A stretch of 64,000 bases of DNA from Alphaproteobacteria bacterium (GTDB lineage: Bacteria > Pseudomonadota > Alphaproteobacteria > Acetobacterales > Acetobacteraceae): assembly GCA_020850755.1 (NCBI GenBank), contig JADZEB010000034.1:1-64000 (forward strand), read 5' to 3'. The notes beneath the pieces are model-generated. The model searched no databases, was not told where the DNA came from, and saw nothing but the letters and a program-made list of their open reading frames with translations. Shown here in pieces: positions 10,015 to 60,624 of the stretch. Within the stretch, counting starts at the first letter, position 1; every line of letters starts with the position of its first letter. The position numbers were made by a program, and so were the translations under genes.

Positions 10015-10177
10015 CGGGACGTTCCTTCGCATCGGGTGGGGCGCGTCGAGGCGCGCGCGGGATCAGGCTCGGGCTAGCACGGAACCGCCGTGTCGGGCAA
10101 TGCGGCGGGGCGGCCCGGGGCAGGCGAGCGCGGTCCTGCGATGCCGCCTTTGCGCACGAACCGGCCGAAGGGAGGCG

Positions 10178-10299
10178 GCGCCCGATCCGGTGGAACCGCG
10201 CTGCGGTTCCGCCGGATGGGACCGGGCCGCTCGCAGATCGTCGGTTCCCAGGGCGCGGGTTCCGTTCGGCTGATCCAGCCCGGACGGGACGCGCCCTAG
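10178..10299 (-). repeat. Two-hairpin dispersed element, copy 1 (full, minus orientation)
   Basis: Contains hairpin B at 10185-10217 (ATCCGG...CCGGAT) and hairpin A at 10259-10290 (GTTCCGTTCGG...CCGGACGGGAC), joined by a conserved linker. It ends with CTAG at 10296-10299. Read on the minus strand the order is CTAG-border, A, linker, B. The TAG stop codon of the histidine phosphatase gene lies inside this border. Related copies are at 27891-28020, 29056-29185, 58529-58597 and 60495-60624. Confidence 0.8.
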
Positions 10300-10853
10300 C
10301 CGTGCTTCCAGTTGATCTCGGCCGGGGCGGCCGCGGTGGGGTCGGTGCGCAGGATCTCGCCATTCTGGACCTTGATCCCGGTGAAGCTGAGGATGAAACC
10401 CCAATGCGACACCACCAGCGTGTTCTGCCAGCCGGGCAGGGCGGCCATCTCGGCGCGGAAGGTGGCGGCGCGCGCCAGCACGGATTCCGCCGGCTCCTCG
10501 ATCGGCGGCCACCACACCTCGGGCACATGGGCGAAATCGAGTTCGGGCCAGGCGGCGGCCAGCTCGGTCGTGGGCGAGCCGATGTCGCAGGCGAAGGCGT
10601 AGCGCTCGCGCACCACGGGGTTGACCAGGATCGGCGCGCCGATCTCGGCCGCGACGATCGATGCGGTTTCCAGCGCGCGGGTATAGGGCGAGGCGATGAT
10701 GCGGTCGATCCGCTGCCCGCGCAGCTTCTGCCCGGCCTCGCGCGCCTGGGCGCGGCCGAGCTCGGTCAGGCGCGGATCGGGAATGCCCGGATCCTTGCGC
10801 GTGAGGGTGAACAGCGCGTTGAACTCGGACTGGCCGTGGCGCAGCAGGATCAT
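10296..10853 (-). CDS. Histidine phosphatase (phosphoglycerate-mutase-like) family protein
   Basis: 185 residues beginning MILLRHGQSEFNALF, the RHG motif with the phospho-accepting His6. Further elements: PRLTELGRAQAREAG, IIASPYTRALETA (second Arg), VVRERYAFACDIGS (acid), and VVSHWGFILSFTG (second catalytic His). The substrate is unknown. Phosphoglycerate mutase activity is not implied because many members are phosphatases. The ATG at 10853 is chosen because longer frames run through AATQAATQAA low-complexity sequence. The stop codon overlaps the border of repeat copy 1. It separates secB from timA, which are often close in related genomes. Confidence 0.87.
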   Translation of the reverse strand: MILLRHGQSEFNALFTLTRKDPGIPDPRLTELGRAQAREAGQKLRGQRIDRIIASPYTRALETASIVAAEIGAPILVNPVVRERYAFACDIGSPTTELAAAWPELDFAHVPEVWWPPIEEPAESVLARAATFRAEMAALPGWQNTLVVSHWGFILSFTGIKVQNGEILRTDPTAAAPAEINWKHG

Positions 10854-26583: not shown

Positions 26584-27894
26584 ATGAGCGGCCCCGATCC
26601 CGCCCCGCCCGGCAGCGGAAGCCTGCCACCCGAAAGCCTGCCGCCCGAACCCGAGGCGGATGCGCTCGTCTCGGGCCAGTACGAGGCCTACCCCTATCCC
26701 GAGCGCGACCCGAAGGACGAGGCCAGGCGCCTGCTCACCGGATCGCCCTCGCATCTGCTCGAGATCGACTACTGGGTGTTCGGCGCGGCGCGGCCGAAAA
26801 GCCGCCCGCTCGCGGCGCTGATCGCGGGCGGGGGCACCGGCGACGCCTGCATCATGCTGGCCCAGCAGCTCGCCTCGGCCGGGCGGCCGGGACAGGTGAC
26901 CTATCTCGACCTCTCCACCGCCTCGCGCGCGGTGGCGGAGAAGCGAGCGGCGGCGCGCGCGCTGGGCAACATCGCCTTCCGCACGGGCTCGCTGCTCGAC
27001 CTGCCGAAGATGGGCATGTGCCCGTTCGAATACATCGATTGCTGCGGCGTCTTGCACCATCTCGCCGATCCGGCGGCGGGGCTGGCGGCCCTTCTGTCCG
27101 TGCTCGCGCCGGGGGGCGGCATCGGGCTTATGGTCTATGCACCCTATGGCCGCACCGGCGTCTATCCGATGCAGGCGGCCCTGCGCGCCCTTGCCCCGGC
27201 CACGCTGCCGGCGCCGGCGCGCGTCGATCTTGCGCGGCGGCTCTACAAGCAGCTGCCCGAAACCAACTGGATGCGCCGCAACCACCTGATCGTCGATCAC
27301 GTCAAGGGCGGGGACGCCGGCCTGTTCGACCTGTTCCTGCATGCGCGCGACCGGCCCTATACGGTGGGCGCGCTCGATGCGCTGGTGCGCGGGGCGGGGC
27401 TTCGCATCGTCGCCCTGATGGAGCCGGCGCGCTACGACCCGGCACTCTATCTCTCCGATCCCCGGCTCAAGGCGCGGCTCGAAGGGCTCGATACGCTCGC
27501 GCGCGCCGGCCTGGCCGAGCAGATCGCCGGCAATATGGGCATCCACATCGCCTATCTGGTGCGCGAGGCCGAGGCGCGCGCCCTGCCCGATCCGGCCGAT
27601 CCCGCCGCCGTGCCGGTGATCAAGAGCATGGACGGGGCGCAGCTTGCCCGCGCCATCCGTCCCGACGGCACGATGGGCGTCTCCTTCGACGGCATCACGC
27701 TTTCCCTGCCCTTGCCGCGCCGCGCGGCGGCGATCATCCAGCGCATCGACGGGGTGCGCGCGCTGGGCGCGATCCATGCCGACATGGCGGCCGCCGTCGG
27801 CACCTTGTCGTGGGAGGCGTTCGCGCGCGACTGGCTGGCGGTCTGGCACGCGCTCAACGGTTTCAACCGCATCTTCCTCGCCGCGCCCGACTAG
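26584..27894 (+). CDS. Class I SAM-dependent methyltransferase
   Basis: 436 residues. The N-terminus QYEAYPYPERDPKDEARRLL is typical of a family of larger bacterial methyltransferases. The SAM-binding core follows: PLAALIAGGGTGDACIMLAQQL (motif I), VTYLDLSTASRAVAEKRA (motif II), GSLLDLPKM, and EYIDCCGVLHHLADPAAGLAALLSVLAPGGGIGLMVYAP. The C-terminal 180 residues look like a helical/winged-helix-like accessory domain (TMGVSFDGITLSLPLPRRAAAIIQRIDG). Substrate unknown. The stop codon (CTAG) overlaps the border of repeat copy 2. Confidence 0.85.
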   Translation: MSGPDPAPPGSGSLPPESLPPEPEADALVSGQYEAYPYPERDPKDEARRLLTGSPSHLLEIDYWVFGAARPKSRPLAALIAGGGTGDACIMLAQQLASAGRPGQVTYLDLSTASRAVAEKRAAARALGNIAFRTGSLLDLPKMGMCPFEYIDCCGVLHHLADPAAGLAALLSVLAPGGGIGLMVYAPYGRTGVYPMQAALRALAPATLPAPARVDLARRLYKQLPETNWMRRNHLIVDHVKGGDAGLFDLFLHARDRPYTVGALDALVRGAGLRIVALMEPARYDPALYLSDPRLKARLEGLDTLARAGLAEQIAGNMGIHIAYLVREAEARALPDPADPAAVPVIKSMDGAQLARAIRPDGTMGVSFDGITLSLPLPRRAAAIIQRIDGVRALGAIHADMAAAVGTLSWEAFARDWLAVWHALNGFNRIFLAAPD

Positions 27895-28020
27895 AGCGGC
27901 GTCCGATCTGGTGGAAACGCAGCGCCGTTCCACCAGATCGGACCAGGCTTCTCGCGAACCTTGGGTTTCTCGGGCACGTTCCGTTCGGCGGGTTCAAGCC
28001 GAACGGAACATGCCCTGGGG
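27891..28020 (-). repeat. Two-hairpin dispersed element, copy 2 (full, minus orientation)
   Basis: Hairpin B at 27905-27939 has perfect 12-bp arms (GATCTGGTGGAA / TTCCACCAGATC). Hairpin A at 27978-28009 also has perfect 12-bp arms (GTTCCGTTCGGC / GCCGAACGGAAC). The B-side border starts CTAGAGCGGCGTCC and includes the TAG stop of the upstream methyltransferase gene. The linker is more diverged than in copies 1 and 3. Confidence 0.85.
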
Positions 28021-28027
28021 CGCCCGC

Positions 28028-28945
28028 TCAGGCGCCGCGCTGCGGGACCGATTTCATGCGCGCTTCGCGGCGTGCGATCGCCATCGTCGCGGCGAAGATC
28101 ACCACCGCGCCGAGCCAGCTCCAGCCGTCCATCACCTCGCCGAAGGCGAGCCAGCCAAGGCAGGCGCCGAAGGGCAGGCGGGCGAAATCGAACGGCGCCA
28201 CGAAGCCGGCATCGGCCAGCGCGAAGGCGCGGCTGGCGCAGACCTGGCCGATCACCGACATGGTGGCGAGCCCGAAGGTGGCCAGGAGCTCCATCGCCGT
28301 CGGCCACTGCCAGGCCATCAGCGCCGGCGGCAGCGAGACCGGCGTCATGATCAGCGTCATCATCAGGACGATGGTCCCCGGCGGCTCGGTGCGGGCGAGC
28401 GCCTTCAGCATCAACATCACCGCCGCCATCATCACCGCCGCGCCGATCGGCAGGAGCGCCACCGGCTCGAAGCTGGCGAGGCCCGGGCGCACGATGATCG
28501 CGCTGCCGAGGAAGCCCACGATCACCGCCGCCCAGCGCCCGCCATCGATGCGTTCGCGCAGGACCAGCGCTGCGCCCAGGGTGGCGAAGATCGGCGCGGT
28601 GAAGTTCAGCGCCGTGGCGCGGTCGATCGGCATCAGCGCCAGCCCGGCGAACCAGAGATAGATCGTCAGGAGCTGCGTCAGGGAGCGCGCGACATAGAGC
28701 CAGAAGCGGCGCCGACTGACCGCGCCCAGCGCGCCGCGCGCGATCACCGGCGAGAGCACCAGGATCGACAGGACATTGCGCCAGAACACCACCACCACGA
28801 CCGGCAGGGTCTGCGATGCATAGCGGGTGCAGAGATTGGCGCTCGCCGCGCCCGCGGCGAAGGCGAACATCCAGAGGGCGGCGCGCACCGGCACCGGCCA
28901 GGCGCCCATGCCGCGCGCGGGCGGGGGTGGTGGCGCGGCGCTCAT
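28028..28945 (-). CDS. EamA/DMT-family drug-metabolite transporter
   Basis: 305 residues with ten predicted helices in two EamA repeats. First repeat: NLCTRYASQTLPVVVVVFWRNVLSIL, YLWFAGLALMPIDRATALNFTAPIFATLGAALVLRERI with the conserved Glu-Arg end, GFLGSAIIVRPG. Second repeat: VIGQVCASRAFALADAGFVAPFDFARLPFGACLGWLAFGEVMD. The substrate is unknown. Members export amino acids, metabolites or S-adenosylmethionine. The 3' end faces repeat copy 2. Confidence 0.87.
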   Translation of the reverse strand: MSAAPPPPPARGMGAWPVPVRAALWMFAFAAGAASANLCTRYASQTLPVVVVVFWRNVLSILVLSPVIARGALGAVSRRRFWLYVARSLTQLLTIYLWFAGLALMPIDRATALNFTAPIFATLGAALVLRERIDGGRWAAVIVGFLGSAIIVRPGLASFEPVALLPIGAAVMMAAVMLMLKALARTEPPGTIVLMMTLIMTPVSLPPALMAWQWPTAMELLATFGLATMSVIGQVCASRAFALADAGFVAPFDFARLPFGACLGWLAFGEVMDGWSWLGAVVIFAATMAIARREARMKSVPQRGA

Positions 28946-29055: not shown

Positions 29056-29185
29056 CTAGGGCGCGTTCCGTTCGCGCTGGATCAGCCGAACGGAAGCCGT
29101 GCCCTGGGAACGGACGATCTACGAGCAGCCTGGTTCCATCCGGCGGAACCGCAGCGCGGCGCCACCGGATCGGACGCTGCTCCAG
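29056..29185 (+). repeat. Two-hairpin dispersed element, copy 3 (full, plus orientation)
   Basis: CTAG border at 29056-29059, hairpin A at 29065-29095 (GTTCCGTTCG...CGAACGGAA), linker GCCCTGGGAACGGACGATCT, and hairpin B at 29138-29170 (ATCCGGCGGAACC...CCACCGGAT), ending GCTGCTCCAG. This copy lies between divergent promoters, not at a stop codon. It is the reverse complement of copy 1 with few differences. Confidence 0.85.
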
Positions 29186-34055: not shown

Positions 34056-34102
34056 CGCCGGCGGCTCCTTCGTCTCGGGCGGGCGGGGGCCGTGGACCTA
34101 CA

Positions 34103-34182
34103 CCCCGAAGGGCGCCCCGTGCCGGCGGGGGTTGTCCACCCGCAGGGCCGGCGCGCGGCTGCCTTGCGGCTGCCCTTCGGGG
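34103..34182. repeat. 80-bp nested inverted repeat
   Basis: Perfect 11-bp outer arms CCCCGAAGGGC (34103-34113) and GCCCTTCGGGG (34172-34182). Inside are a GCCGGC...GCCGGC pair and a GCGGGGGT...ACCCGC hairpin. It could be a structured RNA, a terminator for the divergent or neighbouring transcript, or a small palindromic mobile element. The sequence alone does not decide. Confidence 0.6.
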
Positions 34183-34407
34183 CTTCGGCCAAGAACCCCT
34201 TGCGAGCGGGAGTTGAACCCGAACAGGGGGCCGCCGATGCCCGCCACGCGCGGCGATGCCGTGCGGGCGGTTGGGCCAGCCCCGGCGACAGTGTAACGCG
34301 CCCTCCCCGCGCCGGGGAAGGCAGGAGCGATGCGGGTGCGGAATGGCCGCGGGCGTGATGCGCGGCCGCGTGCCGCGATGGCGGCAGGGCGGTGCTGCGG
34401 GGCGATG

Positions 34408-34491
34408 CGGCGGGGCGGAGCGGCCGAGCGGCGGGGCGGAGCGGCGGAGCGGCGGGGCGGAGCGGCGGAGCGGCGGGGCGGGGCGGCGGCG
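34408..34491. repeat. 21-bp tandem repeat, four copies
   Basis: Unit CGGCGGGGCGGAGCGGCGGAG at 34408, 34429, 34450 and 34471. Copies 2 and 3 are identical, copy 1 has one change, and the last copy diverges at its end. It is strongly G-biased on the + strand. Confidence 0.9.
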
Positions 34492-34750
34492 AGGGGACGT
34501 GTCGGGGCTGGCGCGTCCCGGCTCTGGTCCGGCGCGCGCGGCGGGATGCGGGGTGCGGTGCAGTTCCGCCGCGCGGCTGCCCTGTCGGCCCGGCGCGTGT
34601 GGCCGGATGGCCGGCGGCGCGGCGGGGGCGCCTGCCGGATGGGCTCGTATCGCCGCGCGCCTTGGCCGCATGCCTTGCCGGCGTGGTGGCGGCCGCCTCG
34701 CCGGGCGTCGAGGGGCGGCGACAGATTGGGGCGTGCCCGGACCGGCCCGG

Positions 34751-34816
34751 ACTTGACCCCGACTTGGCCCCGACTTGGCCCCGAGTTAGCCCCGAGTTAG
34801 CCCCGAGTTAGCCCCG
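34751..34816. repeat. 11-bp tandem repeat, six copies
   Basis: Units ACTTGACCCCG, ACTTGGCCCCG (twice), AGTTAGCCCCG (three times), starting at 34751 and repeating every 11 bp. The period equals about one helical turn, so each copy presents the same DNA face. It is flanked by further degenerate ACTTG/ACCTG words. Confidence 0.92.
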
Positions 34817-35039
34817 ACCTGATCCGGATCTGGCCCGGACCGCGGGCGCCTCGGCGCTGGGTGGGAACGGTCCGGGCGCGCATGCCCTCGGCGATGGTGG
34901 TGTCGTGCCGGCCAGGCATGGCGCGGTTGCTGGCGGCAGGGCCGGCCCCGGTCCCGGCGATGGCGGCCCGGCTGCGCGGCAAAAATTGGTGTGGCTGGCA
35001 GGTGCGGCGCTGGCCGGCGGCGAGGCCGGCCTGCGGCGT

Positions 35040-57278: not shown

Positions 57279-57550
57279 CCGCCATCGCGCCGGGGCGGGC
57301 TCGGTTCGGCTCCGATCATCCGAACGGGCATGGCTCTCCCCCGGCAGCCTCGAACTCGCGGGCAGGCAGGCCTGCCCTGAAGGAGTTGCGCTGCCGCCCC
57401 GCCGGAACAGACGCGGCTTCATGCAGTGCATTGAGCCCGTGGCGCGTGACAAAGCGCGCGCGGGGCCGCACCATCGCGCATCGCACCCGCCCGCCGCGCC
57501 CGAGTCGAATGTGCCGCACACGGACGCCGCCCCTGTTGGAACGCCCGCGC
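57279..57550. other. Region between the flavoprotein remnant and mepA
   Basis: 272 bp. It contains a degenerate hairpin-A-like palindrome (57303-57335) and otherwise nothing recognisable. The mepA promoter should lie here. Confidence 0.35.
57303..57335 (+). repeat. Degenerate hairpin-A remnant of the dispersed element
   Basis: GTTCGG (57304-57309) and CCGAAC (57320-57325) around CTCCGATCAT, then GGGCATGGCTC. It resembles hairpin A plus the start of the linker, without hairpin B. Confidence 0.4.
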
Positions 57551-58531
57551 ATGACCCCGCTGTTGCGCACGCACCCTGTCCGCGCCCGGTTCCGGGCATG
57601 GCCGCGCCCTGCCTGGCGGCTCGCCCGCCTCCTCCCTTCGGTCGGGCTCCTGACCGCGCTGCTGGCCGGGCTGCCGGTCGCCCTGTTCGCCCCCGCGCCC
57701 GCCGCTGCCCAGCGCGAGCCGAGCCAGACCGCGCTGCGCTTCGCCGCCGTGCGCCAGCCTTCGGCCGGGCTGGCGCAGGTGATCGGCAAGCCCACCGCCG
57801 GCTGCATCGCCGGCGCCGTCGCCCTGCCGCATGAGGGCCCGGGCTACCAGGTGGTGCGCATCAGCCGCAACCGCTTCTACGGCCACCCCGTGACCATCGA
57901 TTTCGTGCACGCCCTCGGCCGCGCCGCGCGCGAGGCGGGGCTGCCCGCCCTCTATGTCGGCGACCTGTCGCAGCCGCGCGGCGGGCCGATGACCTTCGGC
58001 CATGCCAGCCACCAGAGCGGACTGGACGCCGATATCTGGTTCACGCTCGCGCCCAAGCCCAACCTGCCGGCGGCGGCGCGGGAAAGCTTCGCCTCGCCCT
58101 CGCTGGTCAGGCCTGACCAGATGGCGGTCGATCGCGCGCAATGGCGCCCGGCCCACGCCGCCCTGCTGCGGCTGGCCGCGACCCGGCCCGGGGTGGACCG
58201 CGTGCTGGTGCACCCGGCGATCAAGCAGGAGCTTTGCCGCACCGTGACCGGCGACCGTTCCTGGCTGCGCCGGGTGCGGCCCTGGTACGGGCACAATTCC
58301 CACTTCCATGTCCGCATGCGCTGTCCCGGCGACAGCCCGGACTGCGAAGCCTTCCCCGAGGCCCCGGCGGGCGATGGCTGCGACCGCAGCCTGGAATGGT
58401 GGTTCACCGAGGCGTTCCGCCCCCGGCCCCGTCCGCGCCCGCCGGCCACGCCTCCGCGCCCGCGCGAGCCGATCCTGCCGGTCGCCTGCGAGGCGGTGCT
58501 GGGCGCCGCGAACGCCAGCCTGCGGCGGTAG
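57551..58531 (+). CDS. mepA: Penicillin-insensitive murein DD-endopeptidase (MepA/LAS family)
   Basis: 326 residues. Cleaves D-Ala-mDAP crosslinks in peptidoglycan. Signal peptide ends AAAQREPSQ after a hydrophobic segment (VGLLTALLAGLPVALFAPAPAAAQ). LAS zinc site: MTFGHASHQSGLDADIWF (H-x-x-H..GLDxD), and the second motif HNSHFHVRMRCPGDSPDCE with the HxH ligands. DRSWLRRVRPWYGHNSHFHVRM is the MepA signature. A Pro/Arg tail (PRPRPRPPATPPRP) follows. The ATG at 57551 gives a good signal. The TAG stop lies inside repeat copy 4. Confidence 0.92.
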   Translation: MTPLLRTHPVRARFRAWPRPAWRLARLLPSVGLLTALLAGLPVALFAPAPAAAQREPSQTALRFAAVRQPSAGLAQVIGKPTAGCIAGAVALPHEGPGYQVVRISRNRFYGHPVTIDFVHALGRAAREAGLPALYVGDLSQPRGGPMTFGHASHQSGLDADIWFTLAPKPNLPAAARESFASPSLVRPDQMAVDRAQWRPAHAALLRLAATRPGVDRVLVHPAIKQELCRTVTGDRSWLRRVRPWYGHNSHFHVRMRCPGDSPDCEAFPEAPAGDGCDRSLEWWFTEAFRPRPRPRPPATPPRPREPILPVACEAVLGAANASLRR

Positions 58532-58597
58532 GGCAGGTTCCGTTCGGGCCGGATCAGCCGGACGGAACTCGTGCCCTGGAAACGGACGCCGCTCCAG
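58529..58597 (+). repeat. Two-hairpin dispersed element, copy 4 (hairpin A only)
   Basis: TAGGGCAGGTTCCG starts at the mepA stop, hairpin A has arms GTTCCGTTCG...CGGACGGAAC, and the linker begins CGTGCCCTGG and ends GCTCCAG at 58597. Hairpin B is missing, so this is an internal-deletion copy. The stop codon TAG of mepA (58529-58531) coincides with the border. Confidence 0.75.
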
Positions 58598-58851
58598 CCG
58601 GGGACCGCGCGACACCGACCCGGCCCGGCCCGGCAATCACGGGTCCGGCAACCACGCGTTAGGCCCGTTTCGTGCATTCTGCGGACATGCACAGCGTGGT
58701 GCGACGTGCGGCCCGACCCGCGCATGTTGCATTCAAGCAACAGGTGTGGCGCCAACATGCCTCTAACCTAGCCGTGACTGGAATTTTTCGCGCCCAAGTG
58801 CATTGTATCAATCAGGGCTGCAATGCCCGCCGGGAACTGCTCGCAGGGAAC
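58598..58851. other. Intergenic region before the L,D-transpeptidase gene
   Basis: Contains inverted repeats GCATGTTG (58722-58729) / CAACATGC (58753-58760) with a nested GTTGC/GCAAC pair, and GCATTG (58800-58805) / CAATGC (58821-58826) around ATTGTATCAAT. The AT-rich TGGAATTTTTCG (58778-58789) may belong to a promoter. AGGGAAC precedes the ATG. Confidence 0.4.
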
Positions 58852-60498
58852 ATGACGATGTGGGGCCATGAGGACATGCCGCGCCTGTCGCGGCGGCAGG
58901 CTTTGCGGTTGGGTGGCGGTGCGGCGGCGCTTCTGGCCGTCGCCTTCGGCGGTAACCCGGCGCGCGCGCAGGCCGTGTCCCAGCCCGGCTCTGGCGCCGC
59001 GCTGACCGATCCGGTCGCCCGCTTCTTCGATGCGCGCGGCGGGGCGGCCGCCTTCGTCTCGCCCACGGGCTTCACCCCGGCCGGGCAGGCGCTGATCGCG
59101 CGCCTGCGTCGCGCCGCCGAGGACGGGCTCGACCCCGCCTACTATGCCATTCCCGATCCGGCCGCCGCCTTCGCCGATGCCGATGCCGCCCGCCGCGCCG
59201 ACTGGGCGCTGGCCCGCGCCGCTGCGAGCTTCATCGCCGACCTGGCCGGCGGGCGTGTGCGCAGCCTGCCCAACCGCCCCGACATTCTGCGCGCCCCGCT
59301 CACCTTCGACATGGCCGAGGCGCTCGGCCGCATCGCCGCCTCGGCCGATCCGGCCATGGCGGTGGACGGCTTCCAGCCGACCGACGCGGCCTATCGCGCC
59401 CTACGCGCCGAGCTTGCCCGCCTGCGCAGCCAGACCATGGCCGGCGCCACCGAGATCCGCCGTATCCCGGCCGGGCCCACCATCGATCCCGGCCAGCGCA
59501 ATCCGCGCGTCGCCATCCTGCGCGAGCGGCTGGCCGCCGCTGGCTTCCAGCTCGCCTCGGCCGAGGCGAGCGACCACTACGACCCCGATCTGGTCGCGGC
59601 GGTGAAGCGCTTCCAGGCGCAGAACGGCCTCAATGCCGATGGCCGCCTCGGCCGCGGCACGGTGCAGGCGCTGAACGAGGGCCCCTCCGATCGCATCAAC
59701 CAGATCCGCGTGGCGATGGACATGCGCCGCTCGCTGGTGCCGGACGAGGCGGTGTCGGTCGAGGTCAACGTCCCTGAATATCGCCTGCGCGTCACCGAAA
59801 GCGGCCGCGTCACGCTGGACATGGCGGTGGTGGTGGGCCGGCCCGGCCGCGCCACGCCGATGCTGCGCACGCGCCTGACCCACGCCCTGTTCAACCCGCC
59901 CTGGGGCGTGCCGGAAAAGCTCGCGCGCGAGGACCTGTTGCCGCGCTTCCGCCGCGACCCGCAGGCCATGGCCGAACGCGGCTTCCGCGTCTTCCAGCGC
60001 GTCGAGGGCCAGGTGGTCGAGGTCGATCCGCGCACGGTGGACTGGACCCAGGTCAACCAGCGCGCTTTCCCCTATTACGTGCGCCAGAATCCCGGCGCGG
60101 CGAACGCGCTCGGCCGGCTGCGGCTGACCATGCCCAACCGCGACGACATCTTCATGCACGACACGCCGGACAGGCACTACTTCCGGCGCGAGATGCGCGC
60201 CTACAGCTCGGGCTGCATCCGGCTCGAGAAGCCGATCGAGCTGACCGCCTTCCTGCTCGCCAGCAATCCCGGCTGGGGCCGCGAGCGGATCGAGGCGGCG
60301 ATCGAGCGGCGCGGCACCGCCGGCGTGCCGGCGCAGCGCACGATCCAGACCGTGATCGCCTATCGCACCGTCGTGGTGGGCGCGGATGGGCGCGTCACCT
60401 ACTGGCGCGACATCTACAATCTCGACCACGCCTATCTGCGCGCGATGGATGCGCAGCGCCGCCCGGTGGGCGCCGAGACGCAGCTCGCCGCGCGCTAG
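58852..60498 (+). CDS. YcbB-type L,D-transpeptidase (peptidoglycan 3-3 crosslinking)
   Basis: 548 residues. Signal: LSRRQALRLGGGAAALLAVAFGGNPARAQA, a twin-arginine-like start. Domain order matches LdtD/YcbB: an N-terminal scaffold domain (about 60-200), a PG_binding_1 domain (AILRERLAAAGFQ ... DPDLVAAVKRFQAQNGLNADGRLGRGTVQALN), a YkuD catalytic domain (about 295-480) with DIFMHDTPDRHYFRREMRAYSSGCIRLEKPIEL, where the Cys in SSGCIRL is the nucleophile. The YcbB capping subdomain is inserted before it. AGGGAAC before the ATG at 58852. The stop lies in the border of repeat copy 5. DUF882 follows. Confidence 0.93.
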   Translation: MTMWGHEDMPRLSRRQALRLGGGAAALLAVAFGGNPARAQAVSQPGSGAALTDPVARFFDARGGAAAFVSPTGFTPAGQALIARLRRAAEDGLDPAYYAIPDPAAAFADADAARRADWALARAAASFIADLAGGRVRSLPNRPDILRAPLTFDMAEALGRIAASADPAMAVDGFQPTDAAYRALRAELARLRSQTMAGATEIRRIPAGPTIDPGQRNPRVAILRERLAAAGFQLASAEASDHYDPDLVAAVKRFQAQNGLNADGRLGRGTVQALNEGPSDRINQIRVAMDMRRSLVPDEAVSVEVNVPEYRLRVTESGRVTLDMAVVVGRPGRATPMLRTRLTHALFNPPWGVPEKLAREDLLPRFRRDPQAMAERGFRVFQRVEGQVVEVDPRTVDWTQVNQRAFPYYVRQNPGAANALGRLRLTMPNRDDIFMHDTPDRHYFRREMRAYSSGCIRLEKPIELTAFLLASNPGWGRERIEAAIERRGTAGVPAQRTIQTVIAYRTVVVGADGRVTYWRDIYNLDHAYLRAMDAQRRPVGAETQLAAR

Positions 60499-60624
60499 TG
60501 CACGTTCCGCTCGGCTTCGATCGGCCGAACGGAAGTCGAGCCCGAGAAACCTGAGGTTCGCGAGCAGCCTGATTCGATCCGGCGGAGCCGCGCTGCGGGT
60601 CCAACAGGTCGGGCGCTGCTCCAG
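60495..60624 (+). repeat. Two-hairpin dispersed element, copy 5 (full, plus orientation)
   Basis: CTAG border at 60495-60498 contains the TAG stop of the L,D-transpeptidase gene. Hairpin A (CGTTCCGCTCGGC...GCCGAACGGAAG) follows, then the linker, hairpin B (ATCCGGCGG...), ending CTGCTCCAG at 60624. It is more diverged in the linker and the right arm of B than copies 1 and 3. Confidence 0.8.

Follow-up and report, generated by a model that had tools for sequence, protein, structure and literature searches.

Rhizobium-specific intergenic mosaic elements (RIMEs) are alphaproteobacterial repeats that are built from palindromes and are similar in size to the repeat described here. CcrM-associated intergenic repeats (CIRs; Chen and Shapiro 2003) are also alphaproteobacterial and, as far as they are described in a review account (PMC2229807), measure ~110-130 bp, carry two long inverted repeats as arms joined by a linker, have TA termini and a GANTC loop, and occur exclusively in intergenic regions. 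GTAG REPs are single palindromes of 20-40 bp that bear a GTAG tag at one end and are linked to RAYT (Y1) transposases. Their termini "often provide" the TAG stop codon to flanking genes, and they are enriched between convergent and unidirectional genes (PMC3733652). Thus, the use of repeat termini as TAG stops has a published precedent. Similarly, 36 genes of pneumococcus have their stop encoded within BOX elements, and both RUP and SPRITE show enrichment in gaps between convergent genes (PMC3049150). The insertion sequence IS630 prefers the TA within CTAG, according to Tenzen and Ohtsubo (1991) as cited in PMC2170065.

The locus examined here, positions 60495-60624 of a 64,000-nucleotide stretch of DNA (hereafter the window) from a member of the Acetobacteraceae, is one copy of an interspersed repeat of ~130 bp. 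This repeat is a two-arm palindromic element, probably mobile, that resembles the alphaproteobacterial CIRs and the MITEs and REPs of bacteria.

Architecture of the repeat and its copies in the window

The repeat consists of two hairpins, A and B, that are joined by a short linker, with CTAG at each end and ~126 bp between the flanking CTAGs. Its consensus reads CTAGGGCACGTTCCGTTCGGCTTGAATCAGCCGAACGGAAGTCGTGCCC-linker-GAGCAGCTTGGTCCGATCTGGTGGAACCGC-loop-GCGGTTCCACCAGATCGGACGCTGCTCTAG, and the consensus fold is accompanied by compensatory base changes in both hairpins. Each end of the element closes its own hairpin, the two ends do not pair with each other, and the terminal inverted repeat is very short (~8 bp, CTAGRGCA). 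GANTC is present in or at one loop in 39/104 of the genome's own copies. A covariance model returns 150 scored matches in the 4.5-Mb draft genome, corresponding to ~125 distinct copies once reverse-strand self-matches are dropped, and no mapped copy lies inside a called gene.

A first-pass annotation of the window had listed five copies, claiming that in four of them the border contains a gene's TAG stop and that only copy 3 is away from a gene end. The coordinates agree with both statements (Table 1). Its description of these borders as CTAG holds for copies 1, 2 and 5 but not for copy 4, a fragment without hairpin B. The remaining border has decayed to CCAG in copy 2 (A side, 10 bp from the stop of the convergent transporter gene) and in copy 5 (B side). 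The degenerate sixth copy, absent from that annotation, lies upstream of the mepA-like gene.

CTAG occurs 31 times in the window versus the 62 occurrences predicted by dinucleotide shuffles, or about half. Given this roughly twofold depletion, stop codons and element borders account for a large share of the sites that are left. Separately, a GC-rich tandem repeat of GGCGGAGCGGC units is present at 34412-34504, within an intergenic gap of ~1 kb (34056-35039).

Table 1. Repeat copies in the window and the genes that end at or near them
Feature	Position	Strand	Remarks
Copy 1, full length	10170-10299	-	A border CTAG = histidine phosphatase TAG stop
Histidine phosphatase gene	10296-10853	-	TAG stop 10296-10298, common to copy 1 border
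Methyltransferase gene	26584-27894	+	TAG stop 27892-27894, common to copy 2 border
Copy 2, full length	27891-28018	-	B border CTAG = methyltransferase TAG stop
Convergent transporter gene	28028-28945	-	TGA stop near copy 2
Copy 3, full length	29056-29185	+	Divergent intergenic region; no called gene end at border
Sixth copy, degenerate	57290-57422	+	26.5 bits; away from gene ends
mepA-like gene	57509-58531	+	TAG stop 58529-58531, common to copy 4 border
Copy 4, second hairpin (B) deleted	58528-58597	+	A border GTAG = mepA-like stop
L,D-transpeptidase gene	58687-60498	+	TAG stop 60496-60498, common to copy 5 border
Copy 5, full length	60495-60624	+	A border CTAG = L,D-transpeptidase stop

Coincidence of repeat borders with stop codons across the genome

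Stretches around nearly all strong copies were fetched, yielding a sample of 864 kb, and genes were called by a custom codon-pair model written for the purpose rather than by a standard annotator (86-92% coding). An exact border TAG stop is found in 96 of the 104 full-length copies with usable flanks. Specifically, the stop is located at one border in 74 copies, at both borders in 22, and at neither in eight. All 22 double-stop copies reside between convergent gene pairs, with one stop per end. Random placement in noncoding DNA is expected to give ~1.6% (based on 749 stops, 94,185 noncoding bp and two borders), from which the observed 96/104 departs with p ~1e-162. Mapping the copies against gene ends and comparing with random placement was the check that the first-pass annotation had called for, and the non-random placement it suspected is borne out. 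The coincidence of border and stop is confirmed, and it is far stronger than the window alone revealed.

A gene-calling artefact or chance could be raised against this result, given that a custom script called the genes. However, homology places the ends of conserved proteins at the border, and the p value relative to random noncoding placement is extreme, such that we assign this explanation a negligible probability. The coincidence also exceeds the general tendency of CTAG to occur at stops. CTAGs outside the element in the same 864 kb comprise 140 at stops, 113 in intergenic DNA and 68 in genes. Thus, stops represent 55% of non-element noncoding CTAGs versus 92% of the full copies (p ~1e-16).

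CTAG as the target

Every stop border reads CTAG (118/118), with no instance of TGA and no other TAG context, whereas among the other TAG stops in the sample ~56% are CTAG and ~44% are not. TGA is the stop of most genes in the sample. Because the stop borders are always CTAG and never TGA, the target is the tetranucleotide CTAG rather than "a stop codon". Two candidate targets had been offered initially, CTAG and gene 3' ends as such; the comparison of 118/118 with ~56% supports the former, and the latter is not supported, given the complete absence of TGA and TAA stops at the borders. No further sequence motif is evident around the occupied stops.

Origin of the stop codons at the borders

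Orthologs that lack the element reveal where the border genes end without it. For the histidine phosphatase, 19 of 24 element-free orthologs (from 24 species) terminate at position -1 or 0 as counted from the end of the window gene, and for the methyltransferase 20 of 24 end within 1 aa (18 at -1 or 0, two at +1). The stops of these orthologs are mostly TGA. In a second genus (g111), two border genes have orthologs that also stop at this codon position, with TGA or TAG; the flanks in this genus retain no synteny across the junction, and the orthologous genes themselves are usable for comparison. Similarly, for many border genes the NCBIfam profile runs to the C-terminus or close to it, as with acetoacetate-CoA ligase, enoyl-CoA hydratase, ChvG, serine/threonine dehydratase, glutamate-cysteine ligase and PgmG. 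The two convergent genes at C1:176523-176652 both reach their profile ends (536/537 aa to 534/535, and 310/311 aa to 309/310). Since both genes end natively, the simplest arrangement before insertion is that they had one CTAG in common. The C-terminal tails of the L,D-transpeptidase and mepA vary too much among family members to indicate the native end.

The agreement of orthologs and profiles with the ends of the border genes indicates that the stop position is native and is regenerated by the element. On this evidence, the element landed in CTAG stops that already existed, with CTAG recurring at both of its ends. The original proposal that the element "supplies" the stop is accordingly not supported, because element-free orthologs stop at the same codon and the family profiles end there as well.

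A stronger form of that proposal would have the element, with TAG carried in its ends, land within or immediately ahead of gene 3' ends and create new stops there, thereby truncating or extending genes. TAG is indeed spelled by the border throughout, and BOX, which serves as the stop of 36 pneumococcal genes (PMC3049150), offers a precedent. However, the coincident C-termini of the orthologs and the family profiles that end with the border genes argue otherwise. Moreover, no gene ends inside an element, none of the 74 distal flanks begins with a leftover stop codon, and random insertion would be in frame only about one third of the time. We therefore regard the creation of new stops as highly improbable.

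Gene context, occupancy and decay

Full copies reside in 67 convergent, 32 tandem and five divergent gaps, and the gene pairs overall number 100 convergent, 549 tandem and 102 divergent. When CTAG stops are sorted by gene end, the occupied and empty sites number 29:23 at convergent ends versus 15:119 at tandem ends (29/52 versus 15/134 occupied; p=1e-9, odds ratio 10). Sites at which a single CTAG forms two stops are occupied in seven of nine cases. Among noncoding CTAGs as a whole, the ratio of occupied to empty is 30:140 at stops versus 1:113 elsewhere (p=1e-6).

Single-stop copies have an intact CTAG on the stop side in 74/74 cases but on the free side in only 37/74, where the losses are mostly changes of T or A. 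Thus, the stop-side CTAG is protected while the free side decays. Orientation relative to the gene is free, with the A side facing the gene in 33 copies and the B side in 41. The stop bias is equal in copies near the consensus (young) and in diverged copies (old), which dates its origin to insertion itself or shortly afterwards. Slow purging alone is rejected as its cause on the same grounds.

These patterns raise the question of whether the element is actively steered to stops or to zones of transcription termination, such as the ends of convergent transcripts, beyond its need for CTAG. The excess occupancy of stop CTAGs over other noncoding CTAGs, the tenfold odds at convergent over tandem stops and the equal bias of young copies would all fit such steering. 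However, the non-stop noncoding CTAGs lie mostly in promoter-bearing gaps (110 in tandem or divergent gaps versus two in convergent ones), and so rapid purging of harmful insertions would yield the same picture. Insertion at CTAG stops in tandem gaps may also harm operons. On balance, we consider active steering rather unlikely.

Alternatively, positive selection might retain the element as an RNA device at the 3' end, serving as a terminator, an mRNA stabiliser or an insulator of convergent genes. A role of this kind is possible, given the strong covarying hairpins, the enrichment between convergent genes and the high occupancy of double-stop sites. Other features fit it poorly. An intrinsic terminator is recognised by a GC hairpin followed by a U-tract, and neither a U-tract nor a terminator-like site was found at copy 5, nor does the consensus contain a T-run. 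Furthermore, copy 5 folds only weakly better than shuffled sequences (z -1.6), either end of the element may face the gene, and many copies are decayed. Maintenance as an RNA device is therefore unlikely.

Related elements and mobility

The genomes searched included none of the same genus, and the nearest relatives of the L,D-transpeptidase are Roseomonas-like proteins with ~50% identity. Related elements are sparsely represented in other genera of the family, and the covariance model finds others in four other families of the class. In these related copies the arms are two tandem CTAGAGC...GCTCTAG hairpin units, and GANTC is common in the loop. Because each arm in the related genera is bounded by CTAGAGC and GCTCTAG (L080, L083, L098), the element resembles a dimer built from single palindromic units. 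Related copies are located at TAG stops in 13/27 and 20/34 cases (about half to 60%), in two sets that partly overlap and with a gene caller trained on another genome. Elements from other alphaproteobacterial families (L264, L266, L268, L269) display the same two-arm, CTAG-ended design with different stems, and these also occur at TAG stops.

Searches of the draft genome gave no match to an IS630 transposase (DDE_3, PF13358) or to a Y1 transposase (PF01797, RAYT), with positive controls for the latter. The 864 kb were also scanned for a long element sharing the repeat's ends, a possible autonomous partner, with only chance pairs as the result, and a distant-sensitivity search of the plasmid collection PLSDB gave no match to the element. 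The only PF13586 match in the genome is an IS5-like element that lies inside a repeat copy at C4:125230-126090 with CTAG on both sides, and so another element of this genome also uses CTAG. This IS5-like element was considered and rejected as the source of a mobilising enzyme, its ends being different from those of the repeat.

A model for insertion at CTAG

We favor, with a probability of roughly 0.8, a reading in which a small non-autonomous mobile element inserts at CTAG, the stop is rebuilt in the process, and harmful insertions at CTAG are lost or avoided. We infer that the element spreads by transposition, that the target is duplicated, and that selection causes the bias. A transposase, which the draft may lack, most likely inserts the element at CTAG, and CTAG would be re-formed at both junctions. 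CTAG could come to flank the element through duplication of TA or of CTAG, or because the element has termini that start with G or finish with CTAG. Should TA be the duplicated sequence, as it is when IS630 inserts at CTAG, then the element would begin with G at both ends, and joining C-TA to this G would rebuild CTAG on both strands.

This genome is GC-rich, and in it CTAG is scarce and most often represents a gene end (NNC TAG). An insertion that rebuilds TAG at the junction would leave the upstream gene unharmed, and where a single CTAG is shared by overlapping convergent genes, the stops of both would be restored. Insertions into coding or promoter CTAGs, in contrast to these, would be lost or avoided. 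Rapid loss of harmful insertions, an insertion bias, or a benefit of structured 3' ends could each account for the excess seen at stops and convergent ends.

More tentatively, and with the odds somewhat against it, the data might be extended to a family whose insertion chemistry has become fixed on CTAG and which can thereby invade stops, including CTAGs shared by two convergent genes, while rebuilding the stop on both strands. Gene ends would then constitute a genome-wide safe harbour, and the element would be actively steered to, or favored at, the ends of convergent transcripts.

The repeat makes a quantitative case in which distribution over gene ends follows from a target tetranucleotide that coincides with a stop codon. 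This explains how more than 100 insertions can lie exactly at gene termini while the examined proteins are unaltered, and it cautions annotators that a TAG stop at the border of a repeat may be native. Because convergent CTAG ends are so strikingly occupied, insertion bias can be tested directly against selection, and so can a role at the ends of convergent transcripts.

Comparison with known systems

The repeat shares with RIMEs, by description, a like size and a palindromic build; as noted, PLSDB plasmids hold no match. It is likened to the CIRs by architecture rather than by sequence, since it also has two arms and a linker, a similar size, TA termini and an intergenic location. In contrast to the CIRs as portrayed in the review account (PMC2229807), where the coincidence of borders with stops and the targeting of CTAG are not mentioned, the repeat displays both, and its copy number is higher (>100). 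As with GTAG REPs, palindrome termini act as TAG stops, but this repeat is 130 bp long with two hairpins, carries CTAG at both ends, and has no Y1 transposase in its genome.

MITEs such as RUP, Correia and ERIC are likewise small, non-coding and structured elements with terminal TA, and RUP is enriched at convergent gene ends (PMC3049150). The repeat differs in having a terminal inverted repeat of only ~8 bp and ends that belong to separate hairpins. With MITEs of the IS630 type the repeat may share a mode of insertion, as CTAG is its target and is present on both sides and TA may be duplicated; no IS630 transposase was found in the draft genome. As far as the cited papers show, what sets this repeat apart from all of these systems is the near-total coincidence with stops, the stops on both sides, the strict rule of CTAG and the evidence for a native origin of the stops.
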